Source: an uncultured Succiniclasticum sp. (GTDB lineage: Bacteria; Bacillota; Negativicutes; Acidaminococcales; Acidaminococcaceae). From it: a stretch of DNA of 64,000 nt. The translations under genes were made by a program, and so were the position numbers. The notes below the pieces were generated by a model. It was not told where the DNA came from, did no database searches, and was given only the letters and a program-made list of their open reading frames with translations. This document shows positions 13,002-59,716 of this stretch, one piece after another. How positions within the stretch are numbered: the first letter of the stretch is position 1; every line of letters begins with the position of its first letter. The stretch lies in contig CADCHY010000014.1 of NCBI GenBank assembly GCA_902801365.1, positions 1 through 64,000 of the forward strand. The letters are read 5' to 3'.

Positions 13002-13118
13002 ATTGTCCGGTTTTAAAATGGACAGTAAATAGACAGTTATGGTTTCTCCCTTCATTTTTGATTTTGCAGATGTTATGTAGAAAGTGAAGACGCAGCAATC
13101 ATGCGGGGTTTCACAGTT

Positions 13119-13313
13119 ATTTCTACGTTTCTACCTTTTTTCGGAAAGACAGCGGAAACATAGAAATAATTTAAACACGCACGTACGTATTTGTTCTGCG
13201 TTTATTATGTATTCTTTTCAGGTAGAAAGGTAGAAACGTAGAAATTATGAATACAACCCGCATGGTTATCATACTTTTGATTTCTACCTTTTTTCTACCT
13301 TTTCTACGTTTCG
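13119..13313. repeat. Cluster of direct and inverted TTTCTACC/GGTAGAAA repeats
   Basis: Units of TTTCTACC or TTTCTACG occur at about 13119-13136 (two), inverted at 13221-13245 (three), and again in the first orientation at 13280-13313 (three). Spacing and alternating orientation suggest iteron-like binding sites or the remnant of a replication origin. The rest of 13002-13496 shows no gene. A strong -10 (TATACT) lies near 13434, upstream of the NifH-like gene. Confidence 0.6.
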
Positions 13314-48314: not shown

Positions 48315-48498
48315 AAAGTTGCAAAGAAAAAGATTTCGCAAAACCGTCCACGATTGCTATTTCATGGATTTATCCGCCTGTGGCTTCGAAACTCGGGGCT
48401 TCGCCCCTCAGACAGTCTCGCCACGACGGCGAATTTCATCTCATGAAATTACGCAATCGCTCCCGATGTTTTGCTTAACTCTTCTTCTTTGCAACTTT
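48315..48498. repeat. Giant-hairpin intergenic repeat, copy 1
   Basis: A 184-bp imperfect palindrome. Outer arms AAAGTTGCAAAGAA (48315-48328) and the perfect complement (48485-48498) are unique to this copy. The core 48338-48474 starts GCAAAAC and ends GTTTTGC, has inner arms TTTCATG/CATGAAA and apical stem GGGGC-TTC-GCCCC. The core is shared with 53717-53922 and 59532-59716. It lies between a small gene and the dnaX promoter, and T-rich sequence follows the right arm. Confidence 0.9.
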
Positions 48499-48529
48499 AT
48501 TTTTTCTCTTAGATTTCATATTAATTTCA

Positions 48530-53621: not shown

Positions 53622-53704
53622 TTGAAGTATCCTTTCTTTTGTGCTATAGTATATATACAATCAAACAGCCCCTCATTTGGCCCTTCTCGCAAGGGCTTTT
53701 TTTT
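53622..53704 (+). ncRNA. Candidate small RNA of about 48 nt with own promoter and terminator
   Basis: TTGAAG (53622-53627), 17 bp, TATAGT (53645-53650) would start transcription near 53657. The strong terminator GCCCTT-ctcgc-AAGGGC with eight T ends at 53704. No reading frame fits between. It lies between the LCP gene and giant-hairpin copy 2, 13 bp from the latter. The terminator may alternatively serve the LCP gene alone. Confidence 0.45.
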
Positions 53705-53716
53705 GCGCAAAATTTG

Positions 53717-53922
53717 AACGTTAAAAAAACTAACGGCGGGCAAAGCCTCGCAAAAACGTCAACGATTGCTATTCCATGGACTTGTTCGCCTGTGGCTTCA
53801 AAACTCGGTGCTTCGCACCTCAAACAGTTGAAGCCACGGGCATCTCATTTCATCTCATGGAATGACGCAATCGTTTCCTATGTTTTGCTTAGGCCTTGCC
53901 CGCCGTTAGTCTTTTTAACGTT
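53717..53922. repeat. Giant-hairpin intergenic repeat, copy 2
   Basis: A 206-bp imperfect palindrome between convergent LCP and tex genes. Outer arms 53717-53743 and 53896-53922 are complementary over 27 bp with one mismatch and are unlike those of the other copies. Within the shared core, inner arms are ACGATTGC/GCAATCGT and TTCCATG/CATGGAA, a 10-bp stem GTGGCTTCAA/TTGAAGCCAC surrounds the apical stem GGTGC-TTC-GCACC. It ends 2 bp before the tex stop codon, so it is probably in both transcripts' 3' ends. Confidence 0.92.
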
Positions 53923-53924
53923 TT

Positions 53925-56093
53925 CTATTTGTTCTTATTCTCCGGCACTTTCTTTAAAGACAGCCCGATCCGTCCCCGGGCTTCGTCAATGCTGATAATC
54001 ATCACGTCCACGATGTCTCCGGTGGAGACGACATCCAACGGGTGTTTGAAACGGCGGTTGGAAAGTTCTGAACGGTGGATCAGCCCGTTAATCTTCAGTC
54101 CGATGTCTACGAAGCAGCCGAAGTCCACAACATTGCGGATGGTTCCTTTCACGATGGAGCCAATCTGCAGATCGCTGAGCTTCGTCACATTCTTCCGGCT
54201 CAGGGGGGCCGGCGAATCTTCCCGGGGATCCCGGCCCGGCTTGGCCAGGGCCTGGAGGATATCGGTAACGGTGGGCAGACCTGCCTGCAGGTGTTCCGCA
54301 ATCCGTTTCGGGTCCGCTTTGGCGGCGGCTAACTGTACGGCAGGGCTGCCGCTGTTTTCTTTTTTGCATCCTAACTCTGCCAGTATTTTTTCCGTCAGCT
54401 CATAGCTCTCCGGATGGACCGGAGTGTTGTCCAACGGGTTGGTGCCGTTGGCGATGCGCAGGAAGCCGGCGCACTGGGTAAAGGCGGCCGGACCCAGACG
54501 GGGTACCTTTAACAACTCTTTGCGGTTGCGGAAGCGTCCGTTTTCATTGCGGTAAGCAATAATGTTCTTGGCCACGGTACTGCTGACACCGGCCACATAG
54601 CTCAATAAAGCGGGAGATGCGGTATTCAGTTCCACGCCTACGTGGTTTACGCAGCTTTCTACTACGTCGCCCAGGGCATTGCCCAATTCTTTTTGGTTCA
54701 CGTCGTGCTGATATTGACCTACGCCAATGGCCTTCGGTTCGATTTTAACCAGTTCGGCCAGCGGGTCCTGGATGCGGCGGGCAATGGATACGGCGCCCCG
54801 CAGGGACACGTTCAGGTCAGGCAATTCTTCTTTGGCCAGCGGGGAGGCGGAATATACAGAGGCGCCTGCCTCGCTGACGATAAGATACGACAGATTCAGT
54901 TTATGCTTTTCGATCATTTTTGCCGTGAACTCTTCCGTTTCGAAAGAAGCTGTCCCGTTGCCGATGGTGACGAGGGTAACACCGAAATCCTTAACCAGCT
55001 TCACAAAACGCGCTTCCGCGTCATCCTGTTGCCGCTGGCTGCCGATGATGTACAGGGTGTCGGTAGCCAGGACCTTGCCCTGGGGATCGATGACTGCGGT
55101 CTTGCAGCCGGTTCGGTAACCGGGATCCAATCCGATGACCGTGTGCCCCGCGATGGGCTGTTGCAACAACAGCTGCCGCAGGTTGACAGAAAACACATTG
55201 ATAGCCTGCTTTTCCGCTTTCTCTGTCAGTTCATTGCGGATTTCCCGTTCAATGGAAGGGAAAATAAGCCGCTTATAAGCATCGGCGCAGGCTTCGGCAT
55301 ACATTTCGGAAAACCGGTTCCCGCTTTTGATTTTCAGGAAGCGGTGCAGTTCCGCCAGCATATTTTCTTCTGGATAATTTAATGAAAGCTTCAGGTATTT
55401 CAGCTTTTCGCCCCGGTTCAGGGCTAACGTGCGGTGAGGCGGCAGCAGCCGGACCGGCTCGCTGTATTCTTTGTACATGAGGAAATCTTTGCCCGTGGTT
55501 TCATCGGTGGCCAGCACGGAAGCCAGCTGGGCGTTCTGCCACAGCACACGGCGGATTAAAGCGCGTACATCGGCCCTGTCGGAAATGGTTTCCGCCACGA
55601 TATCCTGGGCGCCTTTCCAGGCGTCGCTTTCCGTTTCCACGCCTTTTTCCGCATTGATAAAAGGCGTTGCCAGCTCAGACAGGCTTTTCGGCGTATCGGC
55701 CTGCAGCACAATATAACTGGCCAGGGGTTCCAGCCCTTTTTCGCGGGCAATCTGGGCCCGGGTGCGTTTTTTGGGGCGGTAGGGGAGATACAGATCTTCC
55801 AGGACCTGCATCTTTTCCGCTGCCATAATCTGCTGTTCCAGTTCCGGCGTCAGCTTTTCCTGTTCCCGGATGGAGTTTAAAATTTCTTCCCGGCGCGTGT
55901 CCAGATTACGGAGATACTGGGCCCGGGCCTCCAGGTTGCGGATCTGTTCTTCATCCAGTGAACCGGTGGCTTCTTTCCGGTACCGGGCGATAAAAGGAAC
56001 GGTGTTGCCGTCGTCCAGCAATTGCAGCGCGGCCTCCGCCTGGGCCGGCCGGATATTCAATTCTTTAGCTAATAACAATACGATTTTTTCCAT
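53925..56093 (-). CDS. tex: Transcription accessory protein Tex (S1 RNA-binding)
   Basis: A 722-residue RNA-binding protein conserved in most bacteria. N-terminal helical Tex domain (VPFIARYRKEATGSLDEEQI), YqgF/RNase H-like middle (VIGLDPGYRTGCKTAV), helix-hairpin-helix (NENGRFRNRKELLKVPRLG) and C-terminal S1 domain (IGSIVKGTIRNVVDFGCFVDIG). The ATG at 56093 follows AGAAAGG. It is a single-gene transcription unit, convergent with the LCP gene. Confidence 0.95.
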   Translation of the reverse strand: MEKIVLLLAKELNIRPAQAEAALQLLDDGNTVPFIARYRKEATGSLDEEQIRNLEARAQYLRNLDTRREEILNSIREQEKLTPELEQQIMAAEKMQVLEDLYLPYRPKKRTRAQIAREKGLEPLASYIVLQADTPKSLSELATPFINAEKGVETESDAWKGAQDIVAETISDRADVRALIRRVLWQNAQLASVLATDETTGKDFLMYKEYSEPVRLLPPHRTLALNRGEKLKYLKLSLNYPEENMLAELHRFLKIKSGNRFSEMYAEACADAYKRLIFPSIEREIRNELTEKAEKQAINVFSVNLRQLLLQQPIAGHTVIGLDPGYRTGCKTAVIDPQGKVLATDTLYIIGSQRQQDDAEARFVKLVKDFGVTLVTIGNGTASFETEEFTAKMIEKHKLNLSYLIVSEAGASVYSASPLAKEELPDLNVSLRGAVSIARRIQDPLAELVKIEPKAIGVGQYQHDVNQKELGNALGDVVESCVNHVGVELNTASPALLSYVAGVSSTVAKNIIAYRNENGRFRNRKELLKVPRLGPAAFTQCAGFLRIANGTNPLDNTPVHPESYELTEKILAELGCKKENSGSPAVQLAAAKADPKRIAEHLQAGLPTVTDILQALAKPGRDPREDSPAPLSRKNVTKLSDLQIGSIVKGTIRNVVDFGCFVDIGLKINGLIHRSELSNRRFKHPLDVVSTGDIVDVMIISIDEARGRIGLSLKKVPENKNK

Positions 56094-59531: not shown

Positions 59532-59716
59532 GTGATGCTGTCAGGGAAAGACATCGCAAAACGCTCACGTCTTGCTATTCCATGGACTCATTCACCTGTG
59601 GCTTCGGAACTCGGGACTTCGTCCCTCAGACAGCCTCGCCACGACGGCGAATTTCATCTCATGGAATGACGCAATCCGTTCGAAATTTTGCTCATGTCTT
59701 TCCCCGACAGCGTCAC
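59532..59716. repeat. Giant-hairpin intergenic repeat, copy 3
   Basis: A 185-bp imperfect palindrome starting 25 bp after rlmH. Outer arms 59532-59554 and 59694-59716 pair over 23 bp with two G-T type differences and do not resemble the arms of copies 1 and 2. The core is shared, with inner arms TTCCATG/CATGGAA and apical stem GGGAC-TTC-GTCCC. No T tract follows, so a terminator role is least obvious here. Confidence 0.92.

Follow-up and report, generated by a model that had tools for sequence, protein, structure and literature searches.

The window, that is, the whole 64,000-nucleotide stretch of Succiniclasticum DNA analysed here, contains three long hairpins at positions 48315–48498 (copy 1), 53717–53922 (copy 2) and 59532–59716 (copy 3). 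A preliminary description had reported three hairpins with a common core and differing self-complementary arms, and all three were recovered in our analysis, with a core of ~138 nt. Their parts are as follows.

48315–48336, + strand: left outer arm of copy 1, inverted repeat I4; present without the core in genomes G001, G003 and G004
48337–48474, + strand: conserved core of copy 1, profile match to the full model
48475–48498, + strand: right outer arm of copy 1, followed by ATTTTTT at ~48499–48505
53717–53748, + strand: left outer arm of copy 2, A-tract included, inverted repeat I1
53749–53888, + strand: conserved core of copy 2, a variant with CAGTTGAAGCCACGGGC, from profile match and site comparison
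53889–53922, + strand: right outer arm of copy 2, T-tract included, inverted repeat I1
59532–59554, + strand: left outer arm of copy 3, with orthologues in G003 and G010 that have similar arms
59555–59691, + strand: conserved core of copy 3, profile match
59692–59716, + strand: right outer arm of copy 3, T-tract absent

The arms of copy 1 are AAAGTTGCAAAGAA (left) and TTCTTTGCAACTTT (right), and those of copy 3 are GTGATGCTGTCAGGGAAAGACAT (left) and ATGTCTTTCCCCGACAGCGTCAC (right). As the preliminary description had stated, the right arm of copy 3 is not followed by a T-run; ATTTTTT follows that of copy 1, and the right arm of copy 2 includes a T-tract. An inverted repeat that does not belong to this family, with 42-nt arms (79% complementary) lying 87 nt apart and with TTTCTACGTTTCTACCTTT, is located at positions 13097–13267 of the window.

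A search of the genome to which the window belongs (G000; 2.05 Mb, 53 contigs) revealed 29 matches. The element was detected in 11 of 14 Succiniclasticum genomes and was absent from G007, G009 and G011; the 11 genomes together yielded 186 full copies that differ from one another, spread over 93 sites. All named records with exact pattern matches belonged to Succiniclasticum, Acidaminococcaceae or Selenomonadales, S. ruminis DSM 9236 included. Judging by these searches, the family is apparently restricted to the genus Succiniclasticum. One copy was found at the end of a viral-contig record (L057:1-160, IMGVR_UViG_3300028832_004618) and may be host sequence or the edge of a provirus. Sites were compared across genomes through flank searches. 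A genome tree was built from 8.2 kb of window genes with G007, G009 and G011 as the outgroup; it had the topology ((((G000,G001),G004),G003),G010),G012, with support of 98–100 at these nodes.

The whole hairpin of ~180 nt is composed of the ~138-nt core, a conserved inner stem of 11 nt and a free outer stem of ~8–10 bp. Analysis of 92 cores revealed 37 consensus pairs that were 97% paired, with at least two Watson-Crick types at 20 pairs, and the predicted energy of most full copies with flanks was about −69 to −117 kcal/mol. Arm positions 1–11, beside the core, are conserved family-wide (left GGRAAAGRCAT, right TCATGYCTTTTCC), while positions ~12–20 carry almost no information and are free across the family. 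The earlier claim that the outer stems are unrelated thus holds for these next ~8–10 bp, which vary freely, but not for the 11 nt beside the core, and the idea of wholly unrelated arms was rejected. Among 90 site representatives, the left arm paired far better with its own right arm than with the right arm of another copy at nt 0–12, more than chance would give (local score 7.2 versus 4.5), and at nt 12–25 the own right arm likewise scored above that of another copy (5.7 versus 3.6). Only a slight excess of complementarity extended into the flanks past 26 nt.

Beyond the free stem, an A-rich tract on the left and a T-rich tract on the right are found at a constant distance (A5 in 35% versus 8% in the control, T5 in 34% versus 15%). 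As read from the sequence, this arrangement of A-tract, stem and T-tract is the layout expected of an intrinsic terminator that can be read from either strand. For a subset of copies, a U-tract comes after the stem at the end of a gene, and both tracts were present in 9 of 21 convergent copies versus 8 of 52 tandem ones (p=0.03). We infer that the outer stem may act as an intrinsic terminator of transcription, in many cases in both directions.

In several copies (L155:2512-2712, L029, L218, L299 and L320) the core apex encloses a second palindromic repeat (..TCCCACTTCCTCACTCCGCCCGCTCAGCAAGCTTCGCGTTGCTC..), which has variable self-complementary arms of its own (ACTGGCAATCCG, TGGAGCAACCCG, GGGGCAACCCG). 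In a third repeat family (CTGATACCGCCTTCATAGCGCTCCGCTAACGCTTCGGG .. CGCTTATTCAGGCGGTATCAG; L101:2155-2347, L088:2821-3058 and L348) the outermost complementary arms vary likewise, and at L049 the element is located within sequence similar to that of the third family.

Comparison of 75 orthologous pairs of copies revealed 34 compensated pairs in the inner stem, where 2.2 were expected, and 35 in the outer stem, where 5.2 were expected, which gives 69 versus ~7 overall for copies that, when they share a site, are not independent. No excess of double changes was detected at non-partner positions in the same 75 pairs. The closest pairs (93–99.6% flank identity) contained 26 single changes versus 1 double change; the numbers were 37 single and 10 double at 88–93% flank identity and 94 single and 49 double at 80–88%. 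Since double changes build up with divergence and the changes in the closest pairs are nearly all single, the pattern is that of two-step compensation, which would result from selection on the stem or from later correction of one arm by the other. Instantaneous double changes via template switching were unsupported in the closest pairs.

For pairs of copies from different sites, identity of the outer stem was 0.80 when the cores were at least 0.96 identical and 0.50 when core identity was 0.90–0.92, compared to a null value of 0.46; copies that have dispersed recently thus bring their arms along. Copies of the recent G008 subfamily have ~45 nt in common on each side of the core (long arms AAATTGAAGTTTGTGTGCC). 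Inversion was found in 61 of 171 orthologous pairs (36%), and in 5 of 12 even when the flanks were at least 95% identical. In the flipped pairs, positions 0–11 went with the core in 55 of 57 cases and positions 11–22 in 43 of 55; positions 22–32 were even, and positions 35–65 went with the flank in 47 of 57. The inner arms and outer stem go with the core and positions 35–65 with the flank, and the breakpoints are, therefore, where the arms end on their outer side. Many empty alleles lack both arms and core. Because of the shared arms, the G008 subfamily, the flips and the armless empty alleles, and further because orthologous arms co-vary, the arms are normally part of the element itself.

Genus-wide, 41 sites with a core-less relative were available, and were sorted by reading into classes whose counts are approximate. 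An arms-only hairpin with the same arms was present at ~6 of them: copies 1 and 2, the L024 and L025 sites in G012, the L263 site in G001 and site 46 in G000. In at least two of these cases, the L024 site (G012) and site 46 (G000), the core-less hairpin has an apparent remnant of the core end and is probably a deletion product. Internal-deletion remnants that retain the arms and, in many cases, GCAAAAC/GTTTTGC were found at ~10 sites; arms and core ends are retained at L015, L021, L013, L020 and L080. At ~5 sites there is a terminator with a different sequence (such as L018 in G001, and L067/L097 versus L119), and at ~20 sites, L005, L006, L009, L011, L012, L013, L016 and L017 among them, the relatives have no hairpin. 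At L040 the copy lies within a terminator loop, and the same terminator is core-less in G000 and G001. Direct repeats beyond the arms were seen at some empty sites, being TATCA, ~8 nt (L011) or ~10 nt (L016), and overall ~5–10 nt at L005/G010, L011 and L016, with none at several other sites. Since their length varies and several sites have none, they do not establish ordinary transposition with a target duplication of fixed length.

The preliminary description had proposed that a mobile core inserts into the loops of existing hairpins or that the element captures or templates its flanks, and had named empty sites without a hairpin and arms common to different copies as findings that would count against this. 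The former were observed at ~20 of the 41 sites and the latter where cores were at least 96% alike. Constant capture of arms from the target was rejected as a rule, about half of the empty sites being hairpin-less and the newest copies sharing arms.

The short core-less hairpin that had been anticipated at empty sites was present at copies 1 and 2 but not at copy 3, where deletion scars were found. The copy 2 site is occupied, with the same arms, in G000 and G003 (the core is 97.9% identical to the G003 orthologue), and in G001 and G004 these arms form a perfect core-less terminator, AACGGCGGGCAAG-AA-CTTGCCCGCCGTT. The copy 1 site is occupied in G000 alone. Its arms form a core-less hairpin, AAGTTGTAAAGAA..TTCTTTGCAACTT (also given as AAGTTGTAAAGAA..TTCTTTGCAACTTTATTTTT), in G001, G003 and G004, in which a short GCTTGGA or GCCTGGC loop stands where the core would be. 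No core residue is left in the core-less hairpins at either site. At the copy 3 site, the hairpin is present with similar arms in G003 and G010, and the deletions in G001 and G004 have spared part of the right arm; in G008 (L169, G008:C8), the junction of rlmH with the nucleoside hydrolase gene at this site contains ~3.9 kb of other DNA in place of the hairpin. At the copy 2 site (window 53700–53940), next to tex, different species carry unrelated hairpins, and G013 has a long perfect hairpin, AGCGGGGTTACAGAGTAT..ATACTCTGTAACCCCGCT. Because of these unrelated hairpins, terminators at this site seem to turn over fast.

In the local gene tree for copy 1, G000 is placed outside the three empty genomes, G001, G003 and G004, and gain and loss are therefore equally parsimonious. 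For copy 2, the genome tree requires two gains or two losses. The nearest core to that of copy 1 belongs to a same-genome paralogue, L005 (0.949), with unrelated arms, which would favour a recent insertion; an element remnant with other arms at the copy 1 place in the outgroup G006 would favour loss. The view of copy 1 as a clear gain in G000 was dropped, since the local tree took away polarity. Insertion into existing terminator loops may have occurred at copies 1 and 2; the trees are compatible with either direction of change.

We consider it probable that the element is a non-autonomous, MITE-like palindrome that in many copies resembles a terminator, and that its outer stem has been conserved in its pairing and not in its sequence. 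The whole ~180-nt hairpin would then be the unit of spread, flipping and loss. The outer stem would be kept for pairing only, through terminator function and/or mutual correction of the two halves by template switching, and because of this the arms could drift pairwise until those at different sites lose their likeness, with the core still recognisable. Template switching, through which hairpins are known to be maintained and loops inverted (PMC8794818), could be the source of both the arm pairing and the flips. A deletion within the hairpin could eliminate the core so that a bare terminator remains, and most arms-only hairpins probably arose from such core deletion. Several observations speak against this explanation: copies 1 and 2 are represented in relatives by arms only, with no core residue, which loop insertion would also predict; among cores, the nearest to that of copy 1 comes from a paralogue with unrelated arms; direct repeats are ~5–10 nt long and missing from several sites; and neither a transposase partner in flanking DNA nor a terminal sequence common to subfamilies was found.

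An alternative that we regard as unlikely is that the mobile part is a core together with a short inner stem, which inserts in the loops of existing intrinsic terminators; the terminator stem would then become the outer arms, so that each copy has unrelated arms. We are equally doubtful of its fuller form, in which the core would enter and precisely leave terminator loops, borrowing the host stem as arms, with termination kept meanwhile. Core-less terminators with the same arms at copy 1 in G001, G003 and G004, where the loops GCTTGGA and GCCTGGC are homologous, and at copy 2 in G001 and G004 are consistent with loop insertion, as are the L025 site in G012, the L263 site in G001, the copy in a terminator loop at L040 and the different-armed paralogue nearest to the copy 1 core. 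However, most empty sites are hairpin-less, the newest copies share arms, inversions move the arms along with the core, and the hairpins at the L024 site (G012) and site 46 (G000) retain the apparent core-end remnant; moreover, the local tree is compatible with loss as well as gain at copy 1, and copy 2 can be two losses as well as two gains.

Less probable still is that the arms were made complementary after insertion, one being native and the other copied from it by fold-back through template switching, with the element thereby templating its flanks. Template switching has been described as creating hairpins, making compensatory changes and inverting loops (PMC8794818). The strong excess of compensated changes agrees with fold-back, and at two sites, L017 and L258, native sequence forms the outermost arm on one side, with a new complement opposite. 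The predominance of single changes at 93–99.6% flank identity (26 versus 1), with doubles appearing only with divergence, argues against it, as do the new arms, which are unlike native sequence at most sites, and the slight complementarity past 26 nt. The 37 consensus pairs, their 97% pairing in 92 cores and the 20 pairs with at least two Watson-Crick types could also point to a structured non-coding RNA family, with core and stem conserved for RNA function in trans or in cis. We find this highly improbable: presence/absence and inversion relative to the flanking genes are frequent, the copies have no fixed gene context, an Rfam search gave no match to the element, and the palindrome co-varies as DNA as well.

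In a non-exhaustive literature search we found no description of a stem conserved solely as pairing or of inversion of the whole hairpin, seen here in about one-third of orthologous pairs, and nothing specific on insertions into terminator loops or on repeats in Succiniclasticum. As a MITE-like palindrome, the element would provide a natural series of mobile hairpins with a pairing-only stem, frequent orientation change and, possibly, a bare terminator left behind. Such a series makes testable both the origin of terminator sequence diversity in bacteria and the way in which drifting palindromes keep their halves complementary.

The SPRITE, BOX and RUP repeats of Streptococcus pneumoniae (PMC3049150) are, like the element described here, genus-limited, intergenic, multi-copy and palindromic, and insertion of such elements into each other has been described (PMC10969869). 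SPRITE, which has an 18-bp duplex and a U-rich tract, resembles a terminator and is found preferentially at the 3′ ends of genes (PMC3049150); going by description, the terminator-like stem found here recalls it. According to the same descriptions, SPRITE has one consensus and simple AAAA/TTTT ends, whereas our element has no shared outer-stem sequence and, in contrast to SPRITE, contains a long imperfect hairpin core and is frequently inverted as a unit. Shortness, lack of coding capacity and a high degree of base pairing are shared with bacterial MITEs such as Correia elements and Chunjie (PMC3049150, PMC10969869), as are inverted repeats in nearly every copy. The numerous similar non-coding copies, whose presence at a given site differs between relatives, and the recent G008 subfamily with its long common ends are also MITE-like. 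Unlike the terminal inverted repeats shared by MITEs, sequence past the first 11 nt is common only within subfamilies; a fixed target duplication was not found either, direct repeats of ~5–10 nt occurring at some sites and none at others, and a search via the long G008 ends revealed no transposase with matching ends in the flanking DNA examined. IS1397, ISKpn1 and IS621, which target REP palindromes (PMC1525189), provide a precedent for mobile DNA targeting bacterial palindromes, but they are autonomous insertion sequences, while here no transposase was found in the flanking DNA and most insertions lie outside hairpins. Inversions of hairpin loops are known, among them small plastome inversions (PMC6824564). 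Compensatory stem changes and inversion between paired arms are features that the element has in common with template-switch hairpins (PMC8794818, PMC6824564); in contrast to template-switch loop inversions, the inverted unit is the whole ~180-nt mobile hairpin, arms included.
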